NCBI GenBank assembly: GCA_021845905.1
Contig: JAJZVA010000002.1
Span: 202,577-266,576, forward strand
Source: Pseudomonadota bacterium
Lineage (GTDB): Bacteria > Pseudomonadota > Alphaproteobacteria > Micavibrionales > UBA2020
Length of the DNA stretch: 64,000 nucleotides
Reading direction: 5' to 3'
Notes under the pieces: model-generated
The model's input: the letters and a program-made list of their open reading frames with translations, nothing else
What the model was told of the DNA's origin: nothing
Database searches by the model: none
Program-made: the position numbers and the translations under genes
Part shown: piece after piece, positions 6,185 through 43,122 of the stretch
Position numbering within the stretch: position 1 is the first letter of the stretch
Layout: each line of letters starts with the position of its first letter

Positions 6185-6203
6185 ATGCCGCGTTTTGCGG
6201 CAT
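6185..6203. other. Small hairpin between pseudogene and PLP/ATP-grasp gene
   Basis: ATGCCGC and GCGGCAT pair perfectly around a 5-nt loop. No T-run follows, so it is a weak terminator candidate at best. It also contains an upstream in-frame ATG for the next gene. Confidence 0.3.
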
Positions 6204-6265
6204 ATCGCATGTTATTACGCATTGCCCGTTGCGGGAATGCTTGCGATAATGGCAGAGAGGGGACC

Positions 6266-9100
6266 ATGGAACAGCTTTTAAAAAAAAAGGAGAGCGCCGT
6301 GCGCGGGGAGGAGTCTGCCAGCATTTTCATCGCCCAGCCGCTTGACCTTTTGCTGACGTCGGGCGGCGATCCGCGTCTTGTCGTCGATCCTGCCGACAAT
6401 CTCAACGGCTACGGCTGCCGCCCCGCGCCGCGGCCGGAAGCGATTTCTTTTTCTTCCACCACGGCGTCTACGATATCCGACGCGGCCTATTTGCGCGTTT
6501 CCGCGGCGCGGCTCGACCTGATGCGCGCGCAGCCGTCCGGCGCCGCCGGCACGGCGGCGGAAGAGTCCGCTTTCGATCTCTGCATCGAGCGGATGCGCGA
6601 AGAGTTGAAAAAGCATCTTTTGATCGCGCCGGAAAAAGCCGAAGTCGTGTTTTCGCCGTCCGGCACGGACGGGCAGATTCTGGCGCTGTTCGCGGCGCGC
6701 GCGGTTTTGGGCGGGGCGAAGGTGACAAGCGTCATCGTCGGCGCGAACGAGACAGGCAGTGGTACGGCTTTCACCGCGCGGGGGCGGCATTTCGGCCTGC
6801 GCACGGCGCAGGGCGTTGCGGTTGAAAAAGGCGCAGGCATCGGAGAGCTGGAAGACGGCGCGTCCAGCGTCGATATTCCTTTACGCGATGAAGAGGGCGC
6901 GTTGCGCGCCGCCGCCGACATCGACAGGGCGGTCGTCGATGCCGTCGGCAGGGCTGTTGCCGCGGGATCGAAGGTTCTTTTGCAGGCGATGGACGCATCG
7001 AAGCTCGGCGTCCGCGCGCCGTCGGCGCACTGTCTCAAAGACATCGCCGCGCGCTGGCCGAACGATGTGCTGACGGTCATCGACGCCTGTCAGATGCGTC
7101 TCGGGCGCAAAAGGATAAAAGAGTACCTCGCGCGCGGATACGTCGTGCTGCTGACCGGCTCCAAATTCTTCGCGGGGCCGCCGTTCTCCGGCGCATTGCT
7201 GGTGCCTTCGGGCGTCTCGGCCGCGCTTTCAGCCGTGCAAAATGTGCCTGTGGGGCTTGCCGATTACGCCAATCGCGCCGACTGGCCGCTTGCATGGCGG
7301 GGAATCCGCGACAATCTGCCCGCGCGGCAGAACCTCGGCCAGTGGCTGCGCTGGGAGGCCGCGCTGGAAGAAATGCGCCTTTATTTCGCCGTTTCTGGCG
7401 AGAAACGGCGCGCGGCGCTGGAGGACTTCGGCGCGGCGGTCGCGCGCCGCATCGAAAACGCGCCGTCGTTTTCTCTGTTGTCCGCGCCCGCGGCGGATCC
7501 GACGGATGACATTGACGATGAAGAGATGGAAGTGCGCACGGTGTTTCCGTTTTTCGTGCAAAAAGACGGCCAGCGGCTCGGCGCGGAAGACTGCCGGAAA
7601 ATATACCTCGCCCTCAACCGCGATATTTCCGCGCATCTGCCCGCGGAGGCGACGGCGGAAGAAAAAAAACTGGCGGCAAGACTCTGCCATATCGGTCAGC
7701 CTGTCGCGGTCGCCGCCGCCGCCGTGCTTCGCGTCGCGGCCGGCGCGCGCACCGTATATGGCGGCTGGACGGAAGAAGAAGTGCGGACGGTTTTCGACAA
7801 GATGGAGCTGATCCTCAAATATTTCGCCTGGCTCGACGCTGAAAAGAAATCCGCCGCTGAACCCCAGCCGTTGCGTCTTGGCGCGCAAGATGAACATGTT
7901 GGGCAAGACCGTATCGGCATGGCCAAGCTGACGCGCCTTGCCTTCAACAACGTGCCGCTCAAGCCATTGTGGGACGATCTTTTCAGGCAGGTCGAACAGA
8001 ATCCCGCCAATGCCGCGGCGATGATGGACATGGCGGATATCGCGCAAATTTCCGGCCTGCAGGCCAACGGGCTGGTCGTTCAGTCGGGCGCGCTCGGCAT
8101 GGAACGTCTCTACAATATGCCTTGCGCGGCGGAACGCCCGCGCCTGCGCGTGCTGATGCTCGCGGCCGGCGTCGAGATGGGCGGCAACACGCCGATCGAG
8201 TTTCTGCTTGAAGGGTCGGACATTGCCCTCAGTGTGCTTTATATCGTGCCGGGACTGCCTTTGCCCGACCCTCTGCCCTATCACGATATCGCCTTCAACG
8301 CGATCGCCGACACGGAAGATTCGCGCGCAGCGCTGGAGATCGTCGAGGCGCTGATGCCGCGCTGGCCGAGGCCGGTTTTGAACGCGCCGGAAGGTATCCG
8401 CCGCCTCAACCGCGACGCGCTTTATGCGTTGCTTGCGGACGCGCCCGATATTTACATTCCCATGACGGCGCGGATATCCCGCGCGGCGCTTGAATCACTC
8501 GGTCGCGGGGAAATCGCGCTGACAACCCTGCTCGCCGACGGCGTCTGGCCGCTGATCGTGCGCCCGATCGACAGCCATGCGGGGCGCGGGCTCGACAGGC
8601 TTGAGAGCGCGGCTGATATCGAAAAATATCTCGCGGGGCAGCGGGGCGGCGCGTTCTTCATCTCCCGTTATATCGATTACAGCGGAAAAGACGGCGCGTT
8701 CCGCAAATACCGCATCGTCTTTGTCGACGGCAAGGCTTACGCTATTCATATGGCGATCTCGCACCAGTGGAAGATCTGGTATCTCAACGCCGACATGGCG
8801 GCGAGCGCGGAAAAACGCGCCGAGGAAGACGCCTTCATGACCCATTTCGACGAAGGGTTTGGCGTACGGCACAAAGAAGCGCTGGCCGAAATCGCCGCGC
8901 GCGTCGGCCTCTCCTATTTCGCCATCGACTGCGCGGAAACGAAGGATGGCGCGTTGCTGATTTTCGAAGGCGGCAACACCATGATCGTCCATAACATGGA
9001 CAGCGACGCGGTTTATCCCTACAAGGCGCCGCAGATGAAAAAAGTCTACGCGGCTTTCACCGGCATGATCGCCGCCGGCGCGGAAAAAGACCGGCAATGA
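6266..9100 (+). CDS. PLP-fold (aminotransferase class V-like) / ATP-grasp fusion protein
   Basis: A 944-residue two-part protein of unknown function. Residues about 30-560 resemble a fold-type I PLP enzyme: FSPSGTDGQILALFAARAV (cofactor-binding glycine/Thr region), VIDACQMRLG (Asp that holds the pyridine nitrogen) and LLTGSKFFAGPPFSGALLVP with the likely Schiff-base Lys near residue 300. Residues about 640-930 form a divergent ATP-grasp module: FNAIADTED, LNAPEGIRRLNRD, RPIDSHAGRGL, FISRYIDYS, FRKYRIVFVDGKAYAIHMAI, YFAIDCAE and the metal-binding FEGGNTMIVHN. The same module recurs in the genes at 19660 and 30126. The ATG at 6266 has GAGAGGGG in front; an in-frame ATG at 6185 lacks a ribosome site. 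Its stop overlaps the decarboxylase start (ATGA). Likely a ligase joining an amino acid or amine; substrate unknown. Confidence 0.85.
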   Translation: MEQLLKKKESAVRGEESASIFIAQPLDLLLTSGGDPRLVVDPADNLNGYGCRPAPRPEAISFSSTTASTISDAAYLRVSAARLDLMRAQPSGAAGTAAEESAFDLCIERMREELKKHLLIAPEKAEVVFSPSGTDGQILALFAARAVLGGAKVTSVIVGANETGSGTAFTARGRHFGLRTAQGVAVEKGAGIGELEDGASSVDIPLRDEEGALRAAADIDRAVVDAVGRAVAAGSKVLLQAMDASKLGVRAPSAHCLKDIAARWPNDVLTVIDACQMRLGRKRIKEYLARGYVVLLTGSKFFAGPPFSGALLVPSGVSAALSAVQNVPVGLADYANRADWPLAWRGIRDNLPARQNLGQWLRWEAALEEMRLYFAVSGEKRRAALEDFGAAVARRIENAPSFSLLSAPAADPTDDIDDEEMEVRTVFPFFVQKDGQRLGAEDCRKIYLALNRDISAHLPAEATAEEKKLAARLCHIGQPVAVAAAAVLRVAAGARTVYGGWTEEEVRTVFDKMELILKYFAWLDAEKKSAAEPQPLRLGAQDEHVGQDRIGMAKLTRLAFNNVPLKPLWDDLFRQVEQNPANAAAMMDMADIAQISGLQANGLVVQSGALGMERLYNMPCAAERPRLRVLMLAAGVEMGGNTPIEFLLEGSDIALSVLYIVPGLPLPDPLPYHDIAFNAIADTEDSRAALEIVEALMPRWPRPVLNAPEGIRRLNRDALYALLADAPDIYIPMTARISRAALESLGRGEIALTTLLADGVWPLIVRPIDSHAGRGLDRLESAADIEKYLAGQRGGAFFISRYIDYSGKDGAFRKYRIVFVDGKAYAIHMAISHQWKIWYLNADMAASAEKRAEEDAFMTHFDEGFGVRHKEALAEIAARVGLSYFAIDCAETKDGALLIFEGGNTMIVHNMDSDAVYPYKAPQMKKVYAAFTGMIAAGAEKDRQ

Positions 9101-10506
9101 CGCTTGATCCTGAAAATTGGGATGAAACGCGCGCGCAAGGCCACCGCATGCTCGACGAGATGTTCGATTATCTTGCGACCTTGCGCGACCGTCCGCTGTG
9201 GCGTGAAATGCCGCAAGATGTGCGCGACCATTTCAAGAAAGACGCCCTGCCGCAAAACCCTCAACCGCTCGGCGATGTCTACGGGGAATTCGCGCGGCTT
9301 GTCTTGCCTTACGCGGGCGGCAATCTCCATCCCGCGTTCATGGGCTGGGTGCAGGGCGGCGGCACGCCGGTCGGCATGCTGGCGGAAATGCTCGCGGGCG
9401 GATTGAACGCCAATCTCGGCGGGCGCGACCATGCGCCCGTCGCCGTCGAGCGACAAGTCTCCGCATGGATGCGCGCATTGTTCGGCTTTCCCGCGGGCGC
9501 GACGGGGATTTTCGTGACCGGAACGTCGCAGGCCAATCTGGTCGCGACCCTGATCGCACGTGCGGAAGCTCTCGGCCTGCCGTCGCGCAAATCCGGCATC
9601 GCAGATAAAAAACTCTGCGCCTATGCCTCCGCCGCGGCGCACAGCTGCATCGCCCGCGCGATGGATTTCGCGGGGCTCGGCAGCGATGCCTTGCGTCTCA
9701 TTCCTTGCGACGAACATCACCGCATGGATATCGCCGTTTTGAAAGAAACGATCGCCGCGGACAGAAAGACGGGCAAAACGCCCTTCATGGCCGTCGGCAC
9801 GGCGGGAACGGTGGATGTCGGCGCGATCGACGATCTCAAGGGGATCGGCGAGGTTTGCCGCGCGGAAGACCTCTGGTTCCACATCGACGGCGCCTATGGC
9901 GCGCTCGGCATGCTCGCGCCCGAAATCGCGCCGCGGCTGGACGGCATCGCAGAAGCATCGTCCATCGCGCTCGATTTTCACAAATGGGGGCAGGCGCCCT
10001 ATGACGCGGGATTTATCCTCGTGCGCGACGGCGAAAAGCACAAGGCCGCCTTCGCCACGCCCGCCGCCTATCTCCGCCGCGAAACGCGGGGGCTTGCGGG
10101 CGGAGATTTCTGGCCGACCGATTACGGGCCGGACCTCTCGCGCGGTTTTCGCGCCCTCAAAGTCTGGTTCACGCTGAAAGCCTACGGCACGGCCGCACTC
10201 GGGCGCATGATCTGGCGCACCTGCGAGCTTGCGCGCTATCTCGAGAAAAAAATCCGCGCGGAAAAGGCTCTTGAATTGTGTGCACCCGCGCATTTAAGCA
10301 TCGTCTGCTTTCGCTATAGAGCTTCGGATGAAATTAATGCCGGAATCGTCGCCGATTTGCAGGAGCAGGGCATTGCCGCGCCCTCGATGACCACGATTGG
10401 CGGAAAGCGCGTCATCCGCTGCGCGATCTTCAACCACCGCACGGAAGAGCGCGATATCGATGCGTTGCTGGAAGCCGTGTTGCGCCTCGGCAAAGCCCGC
10501 GCCTAG
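9097..10506 (+). CDS. PLP-dependent group II amino-acid decarboxylase
   Basis: Decarboxylates an amino acid, probably aromatic or acidic, to the amine plus CO2. The 469 residues match group II decarboxylases (aromatic-L-amino-acid, tyrosine, glutamate and diaminobutyrate types). Visible landmarks: HPAFMGWVQGGGTPVGMLAEM in the N-terminal substrate region, TGTSQANLVATLIAR for phosphate binding, GTAGTVDVGAIDDL, WFHIDGAYG with the PLP-binding Asp, and SSIALDFHKWGQAPYDAG with the catalytic Lys. The C-terminal small domain is complete. The ATG overlaps the stop of the PLP/ATP-grasp gene by 4 nt, so the two are translationally coupled and probably work on the same molecule. Substrate cannot be read from the sequence. 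It ends convergently, overlapping the efflux outer-membrane gene by 4 nt. Confidence 0.93.
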   Translation: MTLDPENWDETRAQGHRMLDEMFDYLATLRDRPLWREMPQDVRDHFKKDALPQNPQPLGDVYGEFARLVLPYAGGNLHPAFMGWVQGGGTPVGMLAEMLAGGLNANLGGRDHAPVAVERQVSAWMRALFGFPAGATGIFVTGTSQANLVATLIARAEALGLPSRKSGIADKKLCAYASAAAHSCIARAMDFAGLGSDALRLIPCDEHHRMDIAVLKETIAADRKTGKTPFMAVGTAGTVDVGAIDDLKGIGEVCRAEDLWFHIDGAYGALGMLAPEIAPRLDGIAEASSIALDFHKWGQAPYDAGFILVRDGEKHKAAFATPAAYLRRETRGLAGGDFWPTDYGPDLSRGFRALKVWFTLKAYGTAALGRMIWRTCELARYLEKKIRAEKALELCAPAHLSIVCFRYRASDEINAGIVADLQEQGIAAPSMTTIGGKRVIRCAIFNHRTEERDIDALLEAVLRLGKARA

Positions 10507-18191: not shown

Positions 18192-19463
18192 TTAACGACG
18201 ATGGCGCGCGGACGGTACTGTCACTTTTGATCCGTCCTTGAGTTTGTCGGCGCCTTCAGTGACGACGGTGTCGCCCGCCGCGAGGCCGTAGAGAACGGCG
18301 ACGTTGCCGCCTGCCGCCGCGCCAAGCCTGACCGGAGTCACCCTGACGGTATCGTTTGCCGTCACCACGTAAACGAAATCCCCCGGCGCGCCGTTATGCA
18401 CGGCAGCTTCCGGAATGACGATGACGTTATCCAGCGTTTTGAGCAGCAGCCTGACGTTGACGAACTGGTTGGGGAAGAGCGCATCGTTTTTGTTGGCGAA
18501 GTCGGCGCGCATCCGGATCGTGCCGGTGGAGGTGTCGATGGCGTTGTCGACGGTTTCCAGGGTGCCTTGCGCCAGCGTCGCCGACCGGTTGCGGTCGAGC
18601 GCGGCGACGGGGAGTTTCGCGCCCGCTTTCAGGCGTTTCATGATTTCCGGCAGGTTGTCCTCGGGCAGCGAGAAGAGCACCGACGTCGGCTGCGTCTGCG
18701 TGATGCTGACGATGCCGTTCGGCGTATTGAGCGAGACGTAGTTGCCCGCGTTCACCTGACGGAGGCCGATGCGCCCGCCGATCGGCGCTTTGATGTGGCA
18801 ATAGGCGATGTTGAGTTTGGCGCTGGCGATCTGCGCCTTGTCGGCTTTGACTGTGCCTTCATATTGCCTGACGAGCGATTGCTGGTCGCCCTGCTGCTGG
18901 CGGGAAATGGAATCCTCGCGCAAAAGGCGGTTGTAGCGGGCAAGGTCGCGTTTCGCGCCCTGCAACAAAGCCGCGTCGCGCGCGAGATCGCCCGTGTATT
19001 GCGCCAGTGCGGCTTCGTAGGGGCGCGGATCGATCAATGCGAGTGGATCGCCCTTTTTGACCGTTGCGCCTTCGGTGAAATCGATTTTTTCCAGCGTGCC
19101 GGAGATCTGCGGCTGCACCGTCACGCTGGCGAGCGGCGTCACCGTGCCGAGCGCGTTCAAGATGACGGGAATATTCCCCGTTCTTGCCGTCGCCACCGCG
19201 ACCGGCATCGCGCCGCCGCGCGGGAAACCATTTTCGCCGCCGCGCGGGAAACCATTTTCGCCGCCGCCATGCTGCGTCATGGACGTCGTTTCATTTGGCG
19301 CCACATGCTGCTGCGCGCGCGTCATTGCCAGCCAGGCGAGTCCGCCGCCGATGATCAGGATGGCAAAGACGATTTCCACCCACTGTCCGACGCTGGTCGG
19401 CTGCTCTTGAGGCGCTTCTTCGGGGGGCGTTTGGTGCGGGTGATGTTTGTGTTTCTTGCTCAT
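18192..19463 (-). CDS. Efflux periplasmic adaptor (membrane fusion protein, MdtA-like)
   Basis: Links the RND pumps to the outer-membrane channel. The 423 residues show a cytoplasmic His/Pro-rich start ([16 protein letters not shown]), one TM segment ([19 protein letters not shown]), the barrel-sandwich entry [46 protein letters not shown], an alpha-hairpin rich in Gln ([18 protein letters not shown]), the return half [26 protein letters not shown], and the beta-barrel and membrane-proximal domains. First gene of the efflux operon. Just after the TM there is an exact 24-bp tandem duplication that repeats GGENGFPR twice, a sign of recent slippage in the periplasmic linker. No regulator gene lies beside the operon. 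Confidence 0.95.
19213..19260 (-). repeat. Exact 24-bp tandem duplication inside the adaptor gene
   Basis: Two head-to-tail copies (19213-19236 and 19237-19260) that keep the reading frame and duplicate an eight-residue Gly/Asn/Pro linker just outside the membrane segment. Confidence 0.85.
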
Positions 19464-19659: not shown

Positions 19660-21069
19660 ATGACTGAAATTTCAATATCTCCATCATGGCAGACGCGTGA
19701 CGCGGCGCTGAAAGCGACGGAAAAAAATCTTGCGGAAAATCCCAAGGACACGGCGTCGCTGTTCGAGCGTGCGCACCTGCTGGCGTCGCTTGGGCAGACG
19801 GAGGCGGCGAAAGAGGCTTATTTGGAATTGCTGGCGGTCGCGCCCGCGCATCTTGCCGCGCTCAACGACTTCGGCGCGTTGCTGGTTGAAACCGGATACA
19901 GGAGCGCGGCCAAGACGGTTTACGCGCAGGCGATCGCCCGGCATCCCGACGATCCGAAAGCGCATGTCAACCTTGGCAATATTTTGTTCGATGAAAACGA
20001 TTTTGACGGAGCGCGGCGCTGCTATGAGGGTGCGTTGCGCCGCGACGAAGATCTTGCGCAGGCGCATCAGGGGCTGGCGCGCATCTCTGCGGCGGAACGC
20101 GACATGGACGGCGCGGCGCGGCACGGGATGCGGGGTTTTCGCGGCCATGCGGTCGGCGTGATGGCGTCTTTCGGCGCTGAAAAACCCGTCGAATTGCTGT
20201 TGCTGGCCGCGGCGACGGGCGGCAATGTTCCGCTCAAGCATCATATCGACAGGACGATATTCAGGACGACGACTGTCTTTGCTGATTATTACGATGCGGA
20301 AGACCTGCCGCCGCATGACCTCGTCTTCAATGCCATCGGCGATGCGGATTTTTGCAGGGCGGCGCTCGTTGCGGCGGAAAAACTGCTCGAAAAAACAAAA
20401 GCCGCTGTTCTCAACCCGCCCGCGAAGGTCTTGCGCACGGGCCGCGCAGAAAACGCAGAGCGGCTGGCGGAGACCGAAGGCGTGCGGACGTCGAAAACGC
20501 GGTTTTTGCAAAAAGATCATGTCGCGGCGGCGGATTTGTCTTTCCCGCTATTGTTGCGCGCGCCGGGTTTCCATACCGGTCAGCATTTTTTCAAGCTCGA
20601 CGGCGTGCAGGATCTCGCGGCGGCGCTGGAAAAGCTGCCGGGGAATGAAATTCTCGCCATGGACTATCTCGACGCGCGCGGCGCGGACGGTTTGAGTCGC
20701 AAATACCGCGTGATGGCGATTGGCGGAAAGCTTTATCCTTTGCACATGGCGGTTTCGCGAGAATGGAAAGTGCACTATTTCACCTCCATGCAATATCAGG
20801 ATGAAGAGAAAAAGTTTCTTAAGGACATGGGGTCTGTCGTCGGCGCGCGCGGCGTCGCGTCGCTGGAGAGCATCGCGAAGACGCTGGGGCTCGACTACGG
20901 CGGCATCGATTTCGGCCTCGACGGCGCGGGCAACATATTGCTGTTCGAAGCCAATGCCACGATGGTGATCAATGCCCCGCCGCCCGCAGCGCCTGAACAT
21001 TGCAAACGGGCGGCCGCGCGCGCGGCGGCGGCGGTGAAAGACTTGCTTGAAGCGGAGAGAAAGCCATGA
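19660..21069 (+). CDS. TPR / ATP-grasp protein
   Basis: A 469-residue protein of unknown function. Residues about 12-165 are TPR-like helical pairs (AHLLASLGQTEAAKEAYLELLAVAPAH, then NLGNILFDENDFDGARRCYEGALRRD). Residues about 175-460 carry the divergent ATP-grasp module found also at 6266 and 30126: GGNVP, FNAIGDADF, LNPPAKVLRTGR, RAPGFHTGQHF, MDYLDARG, SRKYRVMAIGGKLYPLHMAV, EWKVHYFTS, LDYGGIDF and the metal-binding FEANATMVIN. No signal peptide, so cytoplasmic. The stop overlaps the start of a Gln-rich exported protein by ATGA, so the partner is made together with it and may be its substrate. No clear Shine-Dalgarno precedes the ATG. By analogy with ATP-grasp ligases it likely forms an amide bond; the substrate is not known. 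Confidence 0.85.
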   Translation: MTEISISPSWQTRDAALKATEKNLAENPKDTASLFERAHLLASLGQTEAAKEAYLELLAVAPAHLAALNDFGALLVETGYRSAAKTVYAQAIARHPDDPKAHVNLGNILFDENDFDGARRCYEGALRRDEDLAQAHQGLARISAAERDMDGAARHGMRGFRGHAVGVMASFGAEKPVELLLLAAATGGNVPLKHHIDRTIFRTTTVFADYYDAEDLPPHDLVFNAIGDADFCRAALVAAEKLLEKTKAAVLNPPAKVLRTGRAENAERLAETEGVRTSKTRFLQKDHVAAADLSFPLLLRAPGFHTGQHFFKLDGVQDLAAALEKLPGNEILAMDYLDARGADGLSRKYRVMAIGGKLYPLHMAVSREWKVHYFTSMQYQDEEKKFLKDMGSVVGARGVASLESIAKTLGLDYGGIDFGLDGAGNILLFEANATMVINAPPPAAPEHCKRAAARAAAAVKDLLEAERKP

Positions 21070-21974
21070 AAAAAATCGCGGGTTTGTTTCTTGTCTTTGC
21101 GCTTTCGGGCACGCCGGCCTTCGCGCAAACCTCCGGCCAGACCCCGACGCAGCAGCAACTGCAACAGTCTCAGAAGGAAATTTTGCAACAGATCCAGCAG
21201 GTGCGGCGGCAGCAACAGCAGTTCCAGCAGCTCCTGATGCAGCAAAGCCAGCAGGCGGCGCAACAGCAAAAAGAACAGCAACAACTGATCTCCGAAGGGC
21301 AGCAACAGGCGCAACAGCAAATTCAGAAAACCGCGCAACAGGTGCAGCAGACAGAGCAAAGCCAGGCGCGGCAGTTCCGGCAGACCCAGCAAAACAAGCA
21401 GCAGGCGCTGACGCAAAGCGGGCAGACGCTCACCCAGGCGCAAAAGCAAAAACAGCAGGCGCAGTTGCAGGCTTTGCGGCGGGAAGAGCAGCAGATCGAA
21501 CTGCAGCAGCAAAAAGAACAGCAAACCTATCAGCAGACGCAGACACAGGCGACGCAGGCGCAGGAGAAAAAACAGCAGAACGGCACAGAGACGCAGGAAC
21601 AGAAATTCGCCGCGCTGACCCAGTCCCTCACGCGGGAAGAGCAAAAGCAGCAGCAGAAATTCAACGACGAAACGCGCGCGCAACAACAGTCGCTACAGCA
21701 ACAACAGCAGGCTTATGAGCAGAGCCAGCAACGGCAGGCGCAACAGTATCAGCAGGCGCAGCAGCAACAGCTTGAGACCTATCAGCAGGAGCAAACGCGC
21801 CAGCGGCAGATTTTTCAGCAAGAGCAACAGGCGCAACAACAGCAGTTCCAGGAGGAGCAACAGTCTTATCAGATGCAGCAGAGCCAGCAACAGCAGGCCT
21901 ATCAGGCGCGACAGAGTCAGGCGGAACAGCAACTCCGTGCCGCGGAGGAGCCACGTGGACAGATTGTGCATTGA
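21066..21974 (+). CDS. Exported glutamine-rich low-complexity protein
   Basis: A 302-residue protein with a clear Sec signal peptide (MKKIAGLFLVFALSGTPAFAQ, cleavage after AFA) and a mature part made almost wholly of Gln, Ala, Glu, Lys, Arg and Thr. By hand count 127 of 302 residues (about 42%) are Gln, in runs such as QQQQ broken by charged or Tyr residues. There is no Cys and only one Phe or Tyr every 15-20 residues; heptad-like spacing suggests a long helical coiled coil, or a disordered aggregation-prone chain. The ATG overlaps the TPR/ATP-grasp stop by 4 nt. Codon use keeps CAG and CAA mixed, arguing that the protein rather than a DNA repeat is selected. Not a recognised family. Confidence 0.8.
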   Translation: MKKIAGLFLVFALSGTPAFAQTSGQTPTQQQLQQSQKEILQQIQQVRRQQQQFQQLLMQQSQQAAQQQKEQQQLISEGQQQAQQQIQKTAQQVQQTEQSQARQFRQTQQNKQQALTQSGQTLTQAQKQKQQAQLQALRREEQQIELQQQKEQQTYQQTQTQATQAQEKKQQNGTETQEQKFAALTQSLTREEQKQQQKFNDETRAQQQSLQQQQQAYEQSQQRQAQQYQQAQQQQLETYQQEQTRQRQIFQQEQQAQQQQFQEEQQSYQMQQSQQQQAYQARQSQAEQQLRAAEEPRGQIVH

Positions 21975-22174: not shown

Positions 22175-22789
22175 ATGGACATCGTCAAAATACTGAGAAG
22201 CAAAGTTCCTGCCAAGCATCTGCCGCAATTCGATCAGGCCATCGCCGCGCTGAATGATCCGAAGGTGCGCAAATATCTCGAAGACAAGGAAATAGCCAAC
22301 GACATAAATGTTATTTCCAATGAAGCCGTCAACACGATGAAAAAGTTCGGCGCCACGACGCAGGATGAGGGTCTGAAGCAAATCTTTAATCTTGCCGCGG
22401 GAACCGCCGTTCCGCTGGCGACGGAATATGTACTGAAAGGCGATCTCAGTTTTCTTAGTAAGGCGCAGGCAGCCAAGGCGATTCCAAAGGCGTTTTTATT
22501 GCGAAAAACTTTTGAAGACGTCGTGAAACGCAAAGATCCCGTTATCCATCAACTTCTCGACGCGTTGCAGAACAATCAAACCGCGATCGATGCCGCGCTC
22601 CGCATCGCCGTCAAAACAAACGGCGATCTTTTCAAGCTCGAAAAAGATGCAAAAGGTCAGGGTTATATCGTCGATCTGACGACGGGCTCGGGTCTGAAGT
22701 TCCCCATCGAGAAGCCGGTCTATGATGAGGCCGTCGCGCTTCTCGCCACAGCCAAGAAGGGCAACCCGCCGCCGAAACCCGGCGCCTGA
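22175..22789 (+). CDS. Hypothetical protein, 204 residues
   Basis: I do not recognise this protein. It is soluble-looking and mixed alpha-helical with no signal peptide or membrane span: MDIVKILRSKVPAKHLPQFD at the N terminus, a charged helix DPKVRKYLEDKEIANDINV, a central moderately hydrophobic segment (IFNLAAGTAVPLATEYVLKG) and a proline-rich tail KGNPPPKPGA. The gene looks real: AAGGAGATCGTTGCC precedes the ATG, a consensus-like promoter lies just upstream, and a strong terminator follows 28 nt after the stop. It is a single-gene transcription unit, convergent with a small membrane-active-looking protein with which it shares the terminator. Confidence 0.8.
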   Translation: MDIVKILRSKVPAKHLPQFDQAIAALNDPKVRKYLEDKEIANDINVISNEAVNTMKKFGATTQDEGLKQIFNLAAGTAVPLATEYVLKGDLSFLSKAQAAKAIPKAFLLRKTFEDVVKRKDPVIHQLLDALQNNQTAIDAALRIAVKTNGDLFKLEKDAKGQGYIVDLTTGSGLKFPIEKPVYDEAVALLATAKKGNPPPKPGA

Positions 22790-23316: not shown

Positions 23317-25791
23317 TCAGCCGTTATTCGGGCCTTGCTTGTTATTTGCCGCGGTCTTGCGGGTTGCGGGTTTTTCGACTGTTGCAGGCGCGCTGTTATC
23401 GTTCTGCGCGGACGGTTTCTTTGCCGCCGCGGCGGTGAATTGCGTCCTGATTTTCGCCTGCTCGGGCTTTTCCTTGTCGGGCGTGGGCACATAAGTCACT
23501 TCGACGGTGCCTTGCGTGTTCGGGTGCTGCAACAAGGTGTCCGCGACGTTCGATGTGATATTGTTTTCGATGTAGTTCATGATGCCGCGTCCGCCGTTTT
23601 TCGGATCGTACTGGTCCTGACACATCTCCTTAAGGTCTTTTTCCGGCACTTCGACGGAGATGCCTTTGTCAGCGATCCATTGGTTAAGTTCCTTCAGGCT
23701 CTTGTTGGCGATCTTGATGATCTCTATCTGACCCAGACGATTGAAGCAGAAGATGCCCGTGAAACGGTTGAGAAACTCAGGGCGAAAGCCTTTTTCTCCC
23801 GTCAGGGGGTTCGGTTCCGGATTCCACAAATCCTTAAGGGCTTTTTTCTTGGCTTCTTCAAACGTCAGGCTTTCATCGAGGAAGTATTGCGCCCCGACGT
23901 TTGACGTGAGGATGTTGATGGAATTGGCAAAGGAAGCTTTGACGCCGCGACGGTCAACCAGCACGCCCTCGTCGATGATTTGCAGGAAAAGGTCGAAGAC
24001 TTGCTTGTCTGCCTTTTCAATTTCGTCGAAAAGATTGATGCAAGAGGGCATGCGGCGCATGTTGTTGGTTAGAAGACCGCCCTCAGCATGGCCTTCGTAG
24101 CCCGGAGGCGCGCCGATCAGCACGGCGCCGGCATGTTTTTCGCCGTATTCGGACATGTTATAGATTTGCAACGCGGATTCGTCGCCGAACAGGGAGTCGG
24201 CGAGCGCTTTGGCGAGCTCCGTTTTTCCGACGCCCGAAGGCCCGATGAAAATGAAGGAACCGATCGGCTTGTTGGGCTTTTTGAGTCCGGTGCGTCCGCG
24301 CTTGACGGATTTGGAGATCGCTTCAATAGGCTCATCCTGACCAAAAACACGCGCTTTCAGCGTTTCGGCGAGGTTGAGGAGTTTTTGGCTTTCGTCCTGC
24401 TTCAGTTTGTTGGCCGGAACGTGCGAAAGGCGGCTGAATTCCGCCAGCACGTGTTCGTCGGTCAGCGTGAGGTCGTCGCCGTTGCTTTCCTGCATCAGCT
24501 CGGCGTACTTTTTCTGATTCGCGTCCATCGCGGTTTGCAATTCCGCACGGGCTTCTTTGAGGGCAGTGATTTCTTCGGAATCGGTCAGGTCCACTTCGGT
24601 AAATATTTTGAACTTTCCGCCTGCGGCATTTTCCGGGGCGGCACCGACGATGAGATCTTCGCCATGGGTCAATTTATAATCGTCCTTGATCGTCTGGCGC
24701 GTTTTGTCGTCTTTCGCCTCGTGATAGGCCTTGCGGGCGTTTTTCAGAGCCTGCTCTTCGGCCCTTAGACCGGCGATGGCCTGATCGAGTTCTCTCAGGC
24801 CATCAAGGCCTTTTGTCTGGTCTTCGCGAATGATGCGCAAGGCGTCCTTCCGCGACGCCCAGTCCGCGTTCACTTCGTCGATGGTGTTTTGGGTTTCGAG
24901 CTTGAGGGCTTCGAGCTCTTGCGGCGTTTTGCCGGCGAGGTCGCCCGCCACGCTGTTCCCGGCGAGGGCTCGCGTGATGCCGGAAAGTTTTTCTTCCAGC
25001 GCGTCGAGTTCCTGCGGGCGGAGACGTGCCGTGCGGCAGTAAGCCACCAGAGCGCCTTCGAGAATGACGATCGAGCGTTTCGGCTGGGCGAGGTCGAGCG
25101 TCAGACCGGGGTATTTTTTCGCCAGTTCCATGACCTGATCGACGGCCTCTTTCGAGACGTTTACGCCATACTGTTTCGAGAAGCGTTCCGCCGTGTGGTC
25201 GAGGATGGCGCGCATGTCTTCCGCGTTCGGCTCGCCGACGTCGCGCAGGGTGAACAGCTTTGAAATGCCGGAATGCGATTCGTAAAGGTCGCGCAACGCG
25301 CTGTCCGCGGCTTCGAAAATCACCTGAACGCGCGGCGTGCCCTTGGCGGCATCCATCAAAACGTTCATCAGGTTGTTGGTGCCGTTGTTGCGCAGGCCGT
25401 CGATGAAGCCCTTGGTGTCATCGATGACAAGCGCGGGATCCTTCGATTTTTTCAGCTCGTTGATCGCGGCCTTGAAGCTTTTGTCGATCTCCTGCGGATT
25501 GCCTGAGGCGAAAAGACCGTCGACGTCGAGATAGTAAAAATCCTTCGCCGCGAGGCTGACGGGCATGTCGTCGCTGAGCTGGTTGGCCTGCAGCCCGAGC
25601 AGGATGGAGGACAGGCCGACGCCGTTTTTTCCGTACAGGATGAGGTTGTTGTTGGCATTTTTGCGCAACAGGACGTCGAGGACGGCATCAAGCTCGTCTT
25701 TGCGGCCGATGAATTTGAAATCGGGGCGGACGTCGAGATAGTCTCTGCCCTTGATCAGGAAACTTTTCGTTTCTTTGTTGTTTTCAGCCAT
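23317..25791 (-). CDS. ClpB-like AAA+ protein with degenerate first ATPase domain
   Basis: An 824-residue Hsp100-type protein with two AAA+ domains. The second (about 510-800) is intact: FIGPSGVGKTELAKALADSL (Walker A), GAPPGYEGHAEGG pore loop, INLFDEIEKADKQVFDLFLQ (Walker B), ILTSNVG (sensor 1) and FRPEFLNRFTGIF (arginine-finger region) plus the C-terminal small domain. The first (about 20-260) keeps the frame (FIGRKDELDAVLDVLLRKNANNNLILYG) but its Walker A reads GKNGVGLS without the Lys and its Walker B reads LVIDDTKG without the Glu, so it should not hydrolyse ATP. The Clp N-terminal substrate domain is absent and a charged helical middle region (about 270-480) separates the two. The gene follows a coiled-coil protein gene by 113 nt and probably acts with it. 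The client is unknown. Confidence 0.88.
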   Translation of the reverse strand: MAENNKETKSFLIKGRDYLDVRPDFKFIGRKDELDAVLDVLLRKNANNNLILYGKNGVGLSSILLGLQANQLSDDMPVSLAAKDFYYLDVDGLFASGNPQEIDKSFKAAINELKKSKDPALVIDDTKGFIDGLRNNGTNNLMNVLMDAAKGTPRVQVIFEAADSALRDLYESHSGISKLFTLRDVGEPNAEDMRAILDHTAERFSKQYGVNVSKEAVDQVMELAKKYPGLTLDLAQPKRSIVILEGALVAYCRTARLRPQELDALEEKLSGITRALAGNSVAGDLAGKTPQELEALKLETQNTIDEVNADWASRKDALRIIREDQTKGLDGLRELDQAIAGLRAEEQALKNARKAYHEAKDDKTRQTIKDDYKLTHGEDLIVGAAPENAAGGKFKIFTEVDLTDSEEITALKEARAELQTAMDANQKKYAELMQESNGDDLTLTDEHVLAEFSRLSHVPANKLKQDESQKLLNLAETLKARVFGQDEPIEAISKSVKRGRTGLKKPNKPIGSFIFIGPSGVGKTELAKALADSLFGDESALQIYNMSEYGEKHAGAVLIGAPPGYEGHAEGGLLTNNMRRMPSCINLFDEIEKADKQVFDLFLQIIDEGVLVDRRGVKASFANSINILTSNVGAQYFLDESLTFEEAKKKALKDLWNPEPNPLTGEKGFRPEFLNRFTGIFCFNRLGQIEIIKIANKSLKELNQWIADKGISVEVPEKDLKEMCQDQYDPKNGGRGIMNYIENNITSNVADTLLQHPNTQGTVEVTYVPTPDKEKPEQAKIRTQFTAAAAKKPSAQNDNSAPATVEKPATRKTAANNKQGPNNG

Positions 25792-25855
25792 GTTCCTGTT
25801 GCTCCCTTGCGAAACGCATAGTCAAAGAAGGTGGATCCGGACGGGCGGGGATATC

Positions 25856-25883
25856 GGGGAGCGGCTGTTGAAAGCTGCTCCCC
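25856..25883. other. Intercistronic hairpin between coiled-coil and AAA+ genes
   Basis: GGGGAGCGGC and GCTGCTCCCC pair over ten positions (one G-T wobble) around an 8-nt loop. No T-run follows on either strand, so it is more likely an mRNA-stability or partial-attenuation element in a shared transcript than a full terminator. Confidence 0.5.
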
Positions 25884-25904
25884 ATGATAACCCGCCATCA
25901 GGGC

Positions 25905-27683
25905 TTATTGAGGCTTGGCGCCGCCACTTTTCTTTTTCGCAGCGGGTTCTTGCGCCGGTTGCTTTTTGTCCTGTTTTGGTTCGTTGTTGTTGGCGGCCTC
26001 TTGGTTGAAATCGGTGCTGAGGCCTTCGGCAACGTTGTTGTTCGCCGCCGTGCCGCGTTCTTGCGCCGTGGCTTCAAGAAGTTCTCCCATGGCTTCCATG
26101 GAGGTCTTCACGGCCTTGTTCAGAGCTTCCAGGCTCTCCTGCCTCATTTCCTTCGCCGCTTTGGAAATGACGCTGGTGTCGCGAAGCCTTTCCGCGTTTT
26201 GCATCATGTTTTCGGCCAGTTCGCTATATCCGGCGGCCTGACGCAGGGATTCCTTCTGGTGGGCAAGGTCGGTCCTTTCGGTCATGATGCGTATCGCGTC
26301 GTGGGCGTGCTCCGCCGCCTCGTTGACGGAGGCGCTCGAGATCGTCGTCAGGGTGGTGGCGATTCCTTCCGCGACGCCGGCGATGCCTGAGCTGGTCAGT
26401 TCGCCCGCTTTCTGAAGCTGCTCGATGTTCGCGGCTTTCAGCGTGGCGACGCGATGGCCCTGTATGGCGAGGTCCGCGTTGCTCTTGGCGGTCTCGACCG
26501 CCGAAGATTGGGCGATGGAGATGAAATCCTCGATTCTGGCCAGCTTGTTTTCGCGTATCGTTCTCTGCACTGCGCCTTCGTTATCGGGGGGAAGCGCCAT
26601 CTGCTCGCGCAATCCCTTGTTGGCGCGCGCGGCTTCGCCCGTCGCTTCTGCTACCAGGCGGAATATGCCCTGAATGCCGCGATTTGCGTCGTTCAGCGTG
26701 TCGATTTGCTCGCCGCGGGCTTCCAGAAGCTTGGTGACCAGCGCGCCCTTCGTCGCCACGGTGTCGATGAATTTCAGAGAAACATCGATCAGTTTTTGCT
26801 GTTTTTCCTTCCATTCAGGACCGGAAATATCGAGCAGCATACGGAGCTGTTCCTTTTCTTTCTGGAACTCGGCGAACTTTGTCTCCGTGAGCGGTGAATC
26901 TTTCAGCGCTTGAAGGTCTTTCTTCTTGTTCTCAAGCTCGGCGAGGCGGCTGGCCCTTTCCGCTTCGATCTCGGCGATTTGGGCGAGAGCTTCCGGAGAC
27001 GTCCTTTTCATGAACGGCAGGCCGGTTTTCTGCTCGCGAAGTCTGGCGATGCGGCCGGCGTCCGTGACGTTTTGCTGCTCGAGACGGGCGATTTCAGCGG
27101 TTCTGTCGGCGACTTCCTGGTCGCGACGGGCTTGAGCTTCTTTGTCTTGCTGGATTTCCTTGTAAACTTCGAGCGTCATCTCCTTGCCTTGCTGGCGGAG
27201 CGTCCAGATCGCGTCGATGATGTCGGTCAGCGGATTGATGGTTTCATCATATTCTTTGATGCCGCCGGTGATGTCGATGATCATGTCGCGCAGTTGGGAG
27301 ATGGTATCGGTTTCGGAAAGGGCGACGATGTCTTTTGACATGTTGGTGCGCTGCTCATGAAGGTAGCGCTTGAAAAGCTCGAATTCCTTCTGGCGGCGCT
27401 TGTTTTCTTCCGGCGTCGCGTTGACGTCGTACGTCAGCGCTTCGGCGATTTTCTTTTTCTTGTCTTCCGGTGCGATATCTTTGCCGATGATGATCTGGAA
27501 GAAGAGATTGGTCTCGATATCGTAAGGTTTTTCTTCCGGTGTTTTTTGAACCTTTTGCTCTGCTTCCGGCTCTGCCGTGACAGGGGCTCTTTTGGGAGTG
27601 GTTTTGCCGCCGCTGTGGACTTTTCTTGCTTCTTCGACAAGCTCAGCGATTTTTTCTTTTTGAGGTGAAGTTTTTTCGGCCAT
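25905..27683 (-). CDS. Large coiled-coil protein, partner candidate of the AAA+ protein
   Basis: A 592-residue soluble protein without signal peptide. The N-terminal 65 residues are Lys/Pro/Glu-rich and disordered. Residues about 195-300 form charged coiled coil (EVADRTAEIARLEQQNVTDAGRIARLREQ, then AEIEAERASRLAELENKKKDLQAL). Residues about 305-540 are long helices with small polar residues (KGALVTKLLEARGEQIDTLNDANRGIQGIFRLV), loosely reminiscent of TelA-type toxic-anion-resistance proteins, but I cannot confirm that. The C-terminal 60 residues are Asn/Gln/Lys/Pro-rich. CAGGAGAACGATA precedes the ATG. It is upstream of the degenerate ClpB-like gene on the same strand with a hairpin between. 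Likely a scaffold or adaptor; function unassigned. Confidence 0.82.
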   Translation of the reverse strand: MAEKTSPQKEKIAELVEEARKVHSGGKTTPKRAPVTAEPEAEQKVQKTPEEKPYDIETNLFFQIIIGKDIAPEDKKKKIAEALTYDVNATPEENKRRQKEFELFKRYLHEQRTNMSKDIVALSETDTISQLRDMIIDITGGIKEYDETINPLTDIIDAIWTLRQQGKEMTLEVYKEIQQDKEAQARRDQEVADRTAEIARLEQQNVTDAGRIARLREQKTGLPFMKRTSPEALAQIAEIEAERASRLAELENKKKDLQALKDSPLTETKFAEFQKEKEQLRMLLDISGPEWKEKQQKLIDVSLKFIDTVATKGALVTKLLEARGEQIDTLNDANRGIQGIFRLVAEATGEAARANKGLREQMALPPDNEGAVQRTIRENKLARIEDFISIAQSSAVETAKSNADLAIQGHRVATLKAANIEQLQKAGELTSSGIAGVAEGIATTLTTISSASVNEAAEHAHDAIRIMTERTDLAHQKESLRQAAGYSELAENMMQNAERLRDTSVISKAAKEMRQESLEALNKAVKTSMEAMGELLEATAQERGTAANNNVAEGLSTDFNQEAANNNEPKQDKKQPAQEPAAKKKSGGAKPQ

Positions 27684-28110
27684 TATCGTTCTCCTGTTTT
27701 ATTGTGTCGGTTGTTCAGACACTGTTGGTGCGATGTAAAATAGACTTGGCGTTAATAAGGATTTATTTTCTACTAACGTCGGCAGAAAACAAACCTATAC
27801 ATAAAACCATAATACGTCAATACGAATTAGGAAGAATTATATTTTATATTGTTATTGTAACTATATTATAGTTTCGAATGTTTTCTTGCCGTATTAATTA
27901 TTCATAATTTGAAATGCAAATCCTGAAATCTTCAAGATGAGTTTCAATATGAACGCCATTAACTTTACAGTGTATGGATTTTTATATTTATGGAATATAA
28001 AACATTCTTTTTTGCGGTTTTTTTTCCAGTGATATGATTCTTTTAGAATCTGTCCGCGCTTGATGTAAACATTCGGCAACAAATCACTTTTACCTTATGG
28101 CGTTTTTGTC
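27684..28110. other. AT-rich divergent intergenic region, 427 bp
   Basis: Strikingly AT-rich against its surroundings and placed between the divergent coiled-coil gene and the J-domain gene, so promoters for both must lie here. I see several TATAAT-like hexamers but no pair with a convincing -35. A 62-codon minus-strand reading (27894-28082) has no ribosome site and an AT-driven composition and is not called. Confidence 0.6.
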
Positions 28111-29055
28111 GTGAAAATGATGACCCATTACCAGCGTCTCGGTGTCGCGCGCGATGCTCCCGCGGCTGTGATTCGCGCGGCCTACAAGGCGCTGGCGCAG
28201 GCGCATCATCCGGACAAGAATCTCGACAATCCCGACGCGACCGAAGCCATGCAGGAGATCAACCAGGCCTATGCGGTTTTATCCGACCCGCAAAGGCGCG
28301 CGGACTACGATATGTCTCTCGCCCGCGCCGAAGAGGCGGAACGCGCGGTCTGGACGCAGCCGCCGCCCGCGCCGCAACAGCAAGGCAACGCCGCGCGGCC
28401 CGCCAGCAGGGCGCCGATGGTGATTTTCGTGACGGCGCTGGTCGGCGCGATGATTTTTTCCTTTTCTTACGCTTATATTTTCAAGGTTTCCCCACGTGCC
28501 GCATCCGGAACCGCTCCGGAAACGGCGCCCGCGCCGCCGCAACCGGTCTTGCGCAAAATCGAGCAGACGGCTTCCGACCCCCGCGCGGCGGAACGGCGTC
28601 TCGCGGATTGCGTTTTCTCCGCCGCCAGCGCATATGATGTCCGTCCATCTGTTCTGCTCGCCTTGTTCAGCGCGGCGGGCGGCGCATCGGGGGATGAAAC
28701 GCCGGCGGCGGACGGCGGTTCCGGTCTCGGCGCCATGCAGGTCAATACGTGGTGGGTGCCGCAGCTCGCCGCCTTGTGGCATGTGCCGCCTGAAAAAGCC
28801 GAAGACATGGTGCGCGACGACGTTTGCGTCAATATCGGCGTGGCGGCGTGGATTTTTCACGCGGCGGCAGAGGAGGGCGGAACGCTGCAACGGCAGGTCG
28901 CACGCTACGACGCATCCGTTCGTCACCTGCCCCGGGCAGACGAAAACGCCGCTTATGTGGCCAAAGTTCTGCGGCTTGCCCGGGTTTACAAGAATGTCAG
29001 GCGACCGCGGGATTTGCTGGGCGGAGAAAAGCCCGCCGCCGCAGGCAAACCCTGA
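28111..29055 (+). CDS. J-domain / membrane / lytic-transglycosylase-like fusion
   Basis: A 314-residue fusion. Residues 4-75 are a J-domain with the DnaK-stimulating HPD motif (AYKALAQAHHPDKNLDNPDA, then AYAVLSDPQRRADYD). A TM segment follows (MVIFVTALVGAMIFSFSYAYIF, about 108-130), so the rest faces the periplasm. Residues about 165-300 match the SLT/VirB1-like lysozyme fold: YDVRPSVLLALFSAAGG, GSGLGAMQVNTWWVPQLA and NIGVAAWIFHAA. In active VirB1-type enzymes the first block has a catalytic Glu (ESGG); here the aligned residues are AAGG, so the domain is probably inactive or binds glycan only. The GTG at 28111 opens the frame; ATGs at 28117 and 28120 are alternatives. Having a cytoplasmic DnaK-recruiting domain and a wall-binding domain on one membrane protein is unusual. 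Confidence 0.82.
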   Translation: MKMMTHYQRLGVARDAPAAVIRAAYKALAQAHHPDKNLDNPDATEAMQEINQAYAVLSDPQRRADYDMSLARAEEAERAVWTQPPPAPQQQGNAARPASRAPMVIFVTALVGAMIFSFSYAYIFKVSPRAASGTAPETAPAPPQPVLRKIEQTASDPRAAERRLADCVFSAASAYDVRPSVLLALFSAAGGASGDETPAADGGSGLGAMQVNTWWVPQLAALWHVPPEKAEDMVRDDVCVNIGVAAWIFHAAAEEGGTLQRQVARYDASVRHLPRADENAAYVAKVLRLARVYKNVRRPRDLLGGEKPAAAGKP

Positions 29056-30125: not shown

Positions 30126-31646
30126 ATGATCATGCAGGAACATGCGGCGCCGCCGACAGACGACGGACGCGAGGCGCAAATCGCCGCGGCGACGCGCGAT
30201 ATCGAGGCCTTGCAGGAGAAAGTCGCGGCGGCGCTCAAGGCGCTCGAACAGGGCGACGCCGCCATGGCGGGCGTCGATCCTGAGGCGATCATGAAGGAGC
30301 TTGCGTCGGCCTACGCGCGGCTGGGCGACCTTTATTTCGCCGCCGACGCGGCGCGGGCGACGATCTGTTACGAAACCGCTCTCAAGTTCGACCCGGGCCA
30401 GTGGGGCGTGCGCATGAAGCTGCTCAAGACCAAAAAGAACCCCGCGCCCGACGATGCGACCAAGGCCTTTTTATACGGCATGCTCTCCGACCAGCCGGAC
30501 AACGTCGGCTTTCTCAACCAGCTTGGGCGGCTGCATCACAGGAATTACGAGATCGGCGCGGCGCTGGCCTGTTTTTCGCGCGCGGCCGAGCTCGCGCCGG
30601 ACAACGCCGACAGCCTTTACTGGCTTGCGGGCGTGCAGCAGCTGGCGGGCGATGCGGACGCGGCGGCGGAAAGCTACCGCCGCGCGGCGCGCGTTCAGCC
30701 GGTCATCAAATTCTCCGCCGGACAAAAAGACGCCGGGTGCGCCGCGCTCTTGCTGTTCGCGCCCTTCGCGGGCAACACGCCGACGGAATATCTCATGGCG
30801 GAGACGCCCTATGCGCTCAACATCGCGCCGCTGTTCCCCGATATCGCGCCGCCGGTCGGGGTTTTGAAGGAGAGCGGCGACGTGGTCGTCAATTTCGTGT
30901 CCGACGCCGATCAGGGGCGGGCGGTCCTGCCCAAGGTGGCGCAGCTGGCCGCCGCGCTCGGCAGGCCGGTGATCAACCCGCCGGAGAAAATCATGCGGAC
31001 GACGCGCGAAGGCGTGGCCGGATTGCTGAAAGATATCCCCGATTGCCGCATGGCGCGGGTCGCGCGGATCGCGGCGGGCGGGGAAATGCCGGATCTCGCG
31101 TTTGAAGGGCCGGTGCTGGCGCGCCCCGCGGGCACCCACGGCGGCGACCGCTTCGAAAAGTTCGACGATGCCGCGGCGGCGGAAAAATTCATCCGCGCGC
31201 ATCCGGAGGAAGACCATTACCTGATGGAATACGTCGATTATCAATCGCCCGACGGGCATTTCAGGAAGTACCGCTTCATCTTCATCGACGGAAACATCCT
31301 GCCTTATCATCTCGCCATCGGCAACGGCTGGAAGGTGCATCACGTCACCACCGGCATGTTCGAGACGCCGTGGATGCAGGAAGAGGAAAAGGCGTTCCTC
31401 GCCGCGCCGGAGAAATTCTTCGCGCCGCGGCATTACGTCGCGATGCGCGCCATCCACGCCGCCATGGGGCTGGATTATTTCGGCATCGATTGCGGGCTCG
31501 ACCGTCAGGGCAACCTTGTGGTTTTCGAGGCCAACGCTGCGATGCTCGTGCATCAGAAAAACAGCGACATGCCTTATAAGATTCCCTATGTCGCCGCCAT
31601 CCGGCAGGCGTTTCAGGAGATGGTCCTCAAACGCGCGGGAACATGA
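30126..31646 (+). CDS. TPR / ATP-grasp protein
   Basis: A 506-residue protein, third carrier of the ATP-grasp module in this window. Residues about 20-55 are a charged helix; about 55-200 TPR-like pairs (LASAYARLGDLYFAADAARATICYETALKFDP, NQLGRLHHRNYEIGAALACFSRAAELAPDN, YWLAGVQQLAGDADAAAESYRRAARVQP). The ATP-grasp part (about 210-500) has GNTPTEYLMAETPY, VNFVSDADQ, INPPEKIMRTTREG, ARPAGTHGGDRF, MEYVDYQS, FRKYRFIFIDGNILPYHLAI, GWKVHHVTTG, LDYFGIDC and metal-binding FEANAAMLVH. GAGGGTC precedes tandem ATGs at 30126 and 30132. It is the last gene of the run that begins with the J-domain fusion and PPK2. No signal peptide. Likely an ATP-dependent ligase scaffolded by its TPRs; substrate unknown. 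Confidence 0.85.
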   Translation: MIMQEHAAPPTDDGREAQIAAATRDIEALQEKVAAALKALEQGDAAMAGVDPEAIMKELASAYARLGDLYFAADAARATICYETALKFDPGQWGVRMKLLKTKKNPAPDDATKAFLYGMLSDQPDNVGFLNQLGRLHHRNYEIGAALACFSRAAELAPDNADSLYWLAGVQQLAGDADAAAESYRRAARVQPVIKFSAGQKDAGCAALLLFAPFAGNTPTEYLMAETPYALNIAPLFPDIAPPVGVLKESGDVVVNFVSDADQGRAVLPKVAQLAAALGRPVINPPEKIMRTTREGVAGLLKDIPDCRMARVARIAAGGEMPDLAFEGPVLARPAGTHGGDRFEKFDDAAAAEKFIRAHPEEDHYLMEYVDYQSPDGHFRKYRFIFIDGNILPYHLAIGNGWKVHHVTTGMFETPWMQEEEKAFLAAPEKFFAPRHYVAMRAIHAAMGLDYFGIDCGLDRQGNLVVFEANAAMLVHQKNSDMPYKIPYVAAIRQAFQEMVLKRAGT

Positions 31647-34147: not shown

Positions 34148-35640
<1,493 letters not shown>

Positions 35641-35734
35641 AAGCTTGGCATCGTCTGGCCCGTGATAGGGCCGAGGCAAATCGCTGTCTTCGTATCTCTT
35701 CTCCAATTTCCTGACCGATAGGACTTTGAATTTA

Positions 35735-35811
<77 letters not shown>

Positions 35812-35832
35812 TTTACTTCAGGTTATCGACAC

Positions 35833-35908
35833 GGGCCCGTAGCTCAGCTGGGAGAGCGCCTGATTTGCATTCAGGAGGTCATCGGTTCGATCCCGTTCGG
35901 GTCCACCA
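35833..35908 (+). tRNA. tRNA-Ala (TGC)
   Basis: A 76-nt cloverleaf: acceptor GGGCCCG with CGGGTCC, which includes the G3-U70 wobble that identifies tRNA-Ala, anticodon arm CCTGA-TTTGCAT-TCAGG with anticodon TGC, encoded CCA. Normal second spacer tRNA. Confidence 0.97.
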
Positions 35909-35962
35909 GATTTTTGATCTGGCGACTGCTCTGCGCTTCGCGCAACCGCGATTGCCAGCAAC

Positions 35963-36038
35963 GGGCCTGTAGCTCAGCTGGGAGAGCGCCTCGTTCGCAA
36001 TGAGGAGGTCGTCAGTTCGATCCTGATCAGGTCCACCA
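35963..36038 (+). tRNA. tRNA-Ala (CGC), third spacer tRNA
   Basis: A 76-nt cloverleaf closely similar to the preceding tRNA-Ala: acceptor GGGCCTG with CAGGTCC (G3-U70 kept), D-arm identical, anticodon arm CCTCG-TTCGCAA-TGAGG with anticodon CGC (reads GCG), T-arm GTCAG-TTCGATC-CTGAT, encoded CCA. A third tRNA in the spacer is unusual and looks like a duplicate of tRNA-Ala(TGC) with a changed anticodon arm. The remaining spacer (36039-36319) has no gene and repeats the TTATTGAACATCGT leader element at 36110. Confidence 0.93.
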
Positions 36039-36319
36039 AATCTTGGGAAATTGAAGTGAGAACAAGTTTTCAGGCCTTCGGGTTTGAATGATCTCATTGA
36101 TCAAAACGTTTATTGAACATCGTGAATAAGTTTACAACAACACTAACCGTAGTCCGGCCGTGACACAAAAGCATGGCCGGATGAATGTAGCCGCGATACG
36201 ATGCTTGGCCCCTTGAACCGACATTTGAGGGTATCCTGGTATCGGAATCGCACTTAATATCAACTTTGCTAAAACTTCTTCTTGTCATGTGTGGATTTGC
36301 TTCTGCATGTGATTAAAAG

Positions 36320-39072
<2,753 letters not shown>

Positions 39073-39080
39073 TCTGCATG

Positions 39081-39137
39081 CATGTTTTACATGCGATATC
39101 AATTTCATGTTTTACATGCGGTGCATGTCACATGCAG
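39081..39137 (+). repeat. Short hairpin repeats in the 23S-5S spacer
   Basis: CATGTTTTACATGCG occurs twice (39081-39095 and 39106-39120) and a variant CATGTCACATGC follows. Each can fold as CATGT/ACATG. They may guide processing of the 23S 3' end. Confidence 0.7.
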
Positions 39138-39225
39138 TAGTAAGGCCACACTGACAAGAACAGCGTTTGATATTAACGGCTGCTTAGTGTTGTAAACAAT
39201 TTTTTCTAATGAACGCGGGCTTGGA

Positions 39226-43121: not shown

Positions 43122-43122
43122 G

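Follow-up and report, generated by a model that had tools for sequence, protein, structure and literature searches.

A TPR/ATP-grasp ligase gene overlapping a gene for an exported glutamine-rich protein: pairing observed within one genus of a ligase family that spans many phyla

The DNA analyzed here, called the window below, is a 64,000-nt stretch of contig JAJZVA010000002.1 (positions 202,577 to 266,576, forward strand) from an alphaproteobacterium of the Micavibrionales (UBA2020, assembly GCA_021845905.1). The two genes under study encode a TPR/ATP-grasp amide ligase and an exported glutamine (Gln)-rich protein, and share an ATGA stop/start overlap by which their translation is likely coupled (Table 1). 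An earlier note had reported the coordinates and lengths of both genes, the overlap, the signal peptide and the Gln count, and all of these proved exact. Elsewhere, the window holds a complete rRNA operon (34148-39343), in whose spacer the customary tRNA-Ile and tRNA-Ala are followed by an additional tRNA-Ala (cgc), a FAD oxidoreductase gene adjoining that of a glutamine-synthetase-like enzyme (41847-44484), which recalls polyamine (Puu-type) breakdown loci, and an autotransporter with a Thr/Ser-rich N-terminal region (60111-62678).

Table 1. Features discussed in the text. Positions are those of the window unless a locus identifier is given.
Feature	Position	Strand	Remarks
PLP-fold + ATP-grasp fusion paralogue, sister clade	6185..9100	+	971 aa; PLP fold read from sequence, no Pfam match
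PLP-dependent decarboxylase	9097..10506	+	ATGA-coupled to the PLP-fold/ATP-grasp fusion
RND-pump membrane fusion protein	18192..19463	-	divergent from ligase; same arrangement in G007 (L038)
TPR + RimK/LysX-type ATP-grasp amide ligase	19660..21069	+	469 aa; no apparent signal peptide
Leu-rich antisense ORF	20895-21686	-	shadow of CAG codons
ATGA stop/start overlap of ligase and Gln-rich genes	21066..21069	+	same overlap in G005 orthologue
Exported Gln-rich protein	21066..21974	+	302 aa, 127 Gln; hydrophobic period 3.64; predicted long helices
204-aa protein of unknown function, syntenic downstream	22175..22789	+	55% identical in G005
Second TPR + ATP-grasp paralogue	30126..31646	+	506 aa; no Gln-rich neighbour
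EF-hand lipoprotein of G007, encoded between the ligase and the Gln-rich protein	L038:144-761	-	weak lanmodulin-like profile match (1e-9), below cut-off
Small His-run proteins	L123:4866-5135, L131:4783-5040, L129:5194-5562, L125:1399-1812, L141:2984-3595, L145:1826-2419, L155:7580-8287, L091:4577-4915		

The ligase consists of TPRs at approximately residues 10-160 and an ATP-grasp domain at approximately residues 165-469. In Pfam searches TPRs were matched strongly and were the only matches above cut-off, the ATP-grasp half remaining below it (YheC/D, E 0.03). A profile of the C-terminal half matched LysX/RimK structures (LysX-type 3vpd, E 2e-8). The AlphaFold model (46 sequences, pLDDT 94, pTM 0.91) was aligned to RimK with Z 19.1 and rmsd 4.2 over 259 residues; its C-terminal half resembled the structures of RimK, LysX, ArgX, glutathione synthetase and Ddl (Z 16-19), and its N-terminal half gave structure matches to TPR proteins. 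Nineteen columns were invariant across 46 homologues, among them ATP-grasp-type Arg, Lys, Asp and Glu, and by this fold and these residues the protein belongs to the RimK/LysX branch of the ATP-grasp superfamily. With the alpha-L-glutamate and carrier-protein ligases RimK, LysX and ArgX it has in common the fold (Z 18-19 over 254-260 residues), the 3vpd profile match and the four conserved residue types, but it is 12-16% identical to them, carries N-terminal TPRs and has no LysW-like or S6 partner in view. It is not a member of the RimK family TIGR00768 (14.4 bits against a cut-off of 143.4). R2K_3 was matched by two of 46 family members (best 1e-4), and the window protein had no R2K match. 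The family is represented in Alpha- and Gammaproteobacteria, Eremiobacterota, Bacillota, Nitrospirota and others, at up to nine copies per genome; in the Eremiobacterota genomes G1258, G1272, G1273 and G1306, five to nine paralogues of the window clade were found in a single genome. It has no Pfam or NCBIfam model, its catalytic half has no curated family model, and no description or function of it was found in the literature searched, which did not include the main amidoligase survey.

Gln makes up 42% of the second protein, with 126 Gln among the 281 residues that follow a signal peptide ending in AFA (judged by eye). No Pfam match was obtained. The Gln codons comprise 90 CAG and 37 CAA, a CAG share of 0.71 compared with 0.72 across 17 further window genes. 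The longest perfect CAG run is three codons, and Tandem Repeats Finder reported only short, imperfect units of 9 and 18 nt. Adjacent Gln codons were identical in 25 of 56 cases, which is rarer than chance (permutation mean 32.6, p = 0.015) and is the opposite of what slippage produces. The argument of the earlier note that mixed CAG and CAA use speaks against simple slippage was thus borne out, the CAG share being that of neighbouring genes and no slippage signature being present. The composition was far from chance. GC by codon position (0.73/0.28/0.70) and a second species, in which a homologue occupies the corresponding position and reading frame, establish the frame as coding.

The hydrophobic residues of the mature Gln-rich protein recur at a single coherent period of 3.64 residues from end to end, inside the range of 3.5-3.67 expected for a coiled coil or amphipathic helix. 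The power at this period was 17.5, compared with 8.3 for the 95% point of the permutation maximum, and was reached in 0 of 500 permutations. Self-similarity peaked at lags of 11 and 51 residues (51/14 = 3.64), the lag-11 peak lying above all shuffles. A long and almost straight amphipathic helix, or a hendecad-type coiled coil, would show such a pattern. A reading of the protein as a poly-Q tract was rejected on the strength of the 3.64-residue period. AlphaFold, run on a two-row alignment with a mean pLDDT of 68, placed helices at residues 29-99, 124-171 and 177-294, the last of which reached a pLDDT of 95 towards the C-terminus. Scattered through the protein are 20 Thr and 23 Glu; no leader motif was seen by eye.

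Among 55 relatives, ligase orthologues were found in two other species only, both of the same genus, which is a small group of soil and water bacteria. The orthologue in G005 is 70% identical, and directly after it, with the same overlap, lies a gene for a 116-aa signal-peptide protein with 26 Gln (22%) and a homologous N-terminus. In G007 (ligase 59% identical) the ligase gene is followed by an EF-hand lipoprotein gene and then by a Gln-rich ORF with a signal peptide, which overlaps the lipoprotein stop and has 14 Gln in its first 29 mature residues before the contig end cuts the gene. A Gln-rich protein with a Sec-type signal was therefore present downstream of the ligase in all three species of the genus that carry it, although the upstream gene varies, and Gln-richness was retained, as the earlier note had proposed to look for, while sequence and length drifted (42% of 302 aa, 22% of 116 aa, and 14 of 29 residues in the truncated copy). 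Five other members of the genus had no ligase and no Gln-rich match, in a search with the Gln-rich protein that was insensitive enough to miss the G007 copy. Since the 204-aa protein gene and an AAA gene further downstream are also syntenic in G005, linkage by itself is not proof of a functional pair and may in part be general synteny. The downstream region of the window (23317-29055) encodes a ClpB-like AAA protein, a 592-aa protein without a Pfam family and a DnaJ-domain protein; genes of the AAA and 590-aa types adjoin one another also in G005 and in G008, which belongs to another genus.

Relatives of the ligase were gathered in 385 alphaproteobacterial genomes, 24 of which had matches, in named genomes (73 loci) and in three additional taxon samples. 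Removal of duplicates left 200 loci, of which 131 were assigned to the window ligase clade by profile score. In a tree of 102 sequences the window ligase and its two genus orthologues fell within a 73-row clade of TPR ligases in which phyla are mixed. Each locus was scanned for a same-strand, Gln-rich ORF with a signal peptide within 3 kb; only five loci had less than 400 bp of downstream sequence. Such a neighbour occurred in the window, G005 and G007 and at no locus outside the genus, so that it was absent from 128 of the 131 clade loci. Three further scan matches (L128, L177 and L214) were discarded, as on inspection they did not resemble a Gln-rich exported protein. The other ATP-grasp paralogues of the genus likewise had no Gln-rich partner. 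The earlier note had named homologues that normally lack a Gln-rich neighbour as grounds for abandoning its proposal: this is how the family stands over the 200 loci, but not the genus, where all three ligase genes are paired. The pair also recalls the graspetide ligases and their precursors (PMC8939145), where too an ATP-grasp gene adjoins one for a low-complexity protein; it differs in that the Gln-rich partner is Sec-type, 302 aa long and, as judged by eye, without a recognised core motif combining Thr/Ser with Glu/Asp. Across the ligase loci no small-ORF family recurred, beyond shadow frames and close relatives, that would qualify as a graspetide-type precursor.

Small His-run proteins rich in Ser, Thr, Gln and Gly (e.g. 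HHHHHHHGGG) were observed beside ATP-grasp genes of the family in about six lineages. By a rule drawn up after the cases had been seen, Ser/Thr/Gln-rich proteins of this kind lay within 900 bp of the ligase at 8 of 101 loci (8 near, 1 far, p = 1e-5). With the rule fixed and fresh samples, none was found near or far at 34 loci of the L125 (Bradyrhizobium) family, 10 of Acetobacteraceae and 35 of Eremiobacterota.

A sister clade of the window ligases is represented in the window by the PLP-fold fusion. Its ATP-grasp proteins are mostly of 411-435 aa, or of 953-961 aa as PLP fusions. At 13 of 20 newly fetched sister-clade loci flagellin-like genes were present in the 14-kb stretch, in most cases to either side, and at 16 of the 20 a decarboxylase homologue lay beside or overlapped the ligase frame; these loci are from related bacteria, and the flagellin association may count as one event. 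Pfam confirmed flagellin and decarboxylase in L251. In L242-L251, L253, L256 and L257 the sister-clade ATP-grasp gene is flanked by flagellin-like genes, with a decarboxylase homologue in every locus. Loci of this composition are possibly an undescribed flagellin modification cluster. Over the whole set, flagellar genes were near 18 of 69 loci with sister-type ligases only, compared with 6 of 131 in the window clade, which by a rough estimate is near chance. In the window genome, flagellin-like genes are on other contigs.

ATP-grasp ligases activate a carboxylate as an acyl phosphate, whose acyl group then passes to an amine, thiol or hydroxyl. A Gln residue has no free carboxylate and is a poor nucleophile, and its side chain is not an ATP-grasp substrate. 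As the chemistry needs both a carboxylate and a nucleophile, richness in side-chain amides is no signature of a substrate, and any modified sites on the Gln-rich protein would be Glu, Lys or the termini. By sequence and structure prediction, the first gene encodes a cytosolic enzyme that joins TPRs to an ATP-grasp domain of the RimK/LysX fold and retains the conserved residues of that superfamily. The product of the second is a helical protein, exported by Sec and drifting rapidly, with Gln occupying the polar side of a helix striped with hydrophobic residues. The ligase would use its TPRs to recognise a substrate and form an amide bond on it. Because members of the enzyme family function across many phyla with no Gln-rich partner, the most likely role of the Gln-rich protein is that of a periplasmic or surface coiled coil, particular to this lineage and carried along with the ligase gene, its Gln residues serving as structural filler rather than as sites of modification. 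We lean modestly toward this reading, in which the pairing is specific to the genus, the Gln-rich protein has a structural role as a coiled coil and the substrate of the ligase lies elsewhere. Three points count against it: linkage in all three species despite differing upstream genes, with overlapping starts, hints at a functional pair; the AlphaFold model of the Gln-rich protein was built from two aligned sequences; and the position of sister-clade enzymes among flagellin genes is a lead for action on exported proteins, which keeps the substrate idea open.

That idea, put forward in the earlier note, is possible but unlikely when framed as modification before export. In the cytosol the Gln-rich protein would dock on the TPRs and, ahead of Sec export, receive an amino acid, an amine or an isopeptide link from the ATP-grasp domain at Glu, Lys or the C-terminus, by analogy with FlmG, a TPR + glycosyltransferase protein whose TPRs bind the flagellins that it modifies (PMC7591256). 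The window ligase likewise has its TPR module N-terminal to the catalytic domain, but this domain is ATP-grasp and not GT-B, and its substrate is only putative. The ATP-grasp gene sfmE of the Shewanella flagellin modification operon affects flagellin mass (PMC3765264) and similarly links such an enzyme to an exported protein; sfmE is assigned to ATP-grasp_4 (PMC3765264), whereas the window ligase family has no ATP-grasp_4 match in Pfam. The linkage within the genus and the flagellin genes around sister-clade ligases favor modification. Against it stand the absence of the partner from nearly all clade loci, the chemistry of Gln, the near-chance flagellar proximity in the window clade and the lack of detectable TPRs in the flagellin-adjacent enzymes. 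The Gln-rich protein as a modification substrate is therefore unsupported.

A small-molecule ligase is a rather less probable alternative: it would make an amide conjugate or short peptide for export by the divergent RND pump, with the Gln-rich protein as an accessory envelope protein. The fold is common to Ddl, LysX and glutathione synthetase, and a divergent RND fusion-protein gene lies less than 1.5 kb from the ligase in the window, L038, L117 and L170 (the last two from Caulobacteraceae), with four such genes near and one at 1.5-6.5 kb. The association is weak, being seen in two lineages only and plausible by chance with 11 RND matches in the genome, and TPRs suggest a protein partner. We consider it very improbable that the ligase cross-links Gln-rich fibres into a surface polymer or functional amyloid: the partner is exported and high in Gln, but its periodicity and predicted helices are strong, the ligase, lacking an export signal, would not be expected to work extracellularly, and nothing points to the polymer that the earlier note had envisaged. 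That the Gln-rich ORF is a spurious CAG-repeat artefact, as its low complexity and the open antisense frame might suggest, is scarcely credible in view of its signal peptide, codon-position GC and genome-like CAG/CAA use, and is already refuted by same-frame Gln-rich counterparts at the same place in two species.

The proposal that ligase and Gln-rich protein form a unit is thus partly supported: they are confirmed as a pair at the level of the genus, and no such pair occurred elsewhere among the 200 loci. The Gln-rich protein illustrates that a Gln content of 42% can be reached while the sequence bears the signature of selection for a helix, not that of repeat slippage. More broadly, and as a doubtful conjecture, the ATP-grasp superfamily represented here (with TPRs in the window clade and PLP-enzyme/decarboxylase partners in the sister clade) might attach groups through amide bonds to exported filamentous, coiled-coil or low-complexity proteins such as flagellin or the Gln-rich helix in the cytosol before export, as an amide-forming counterpart of FlmG-type flagellin glycosylation. 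If the ligase does modify exported proteins, it would represent a new way in which bacteria modify proteins.
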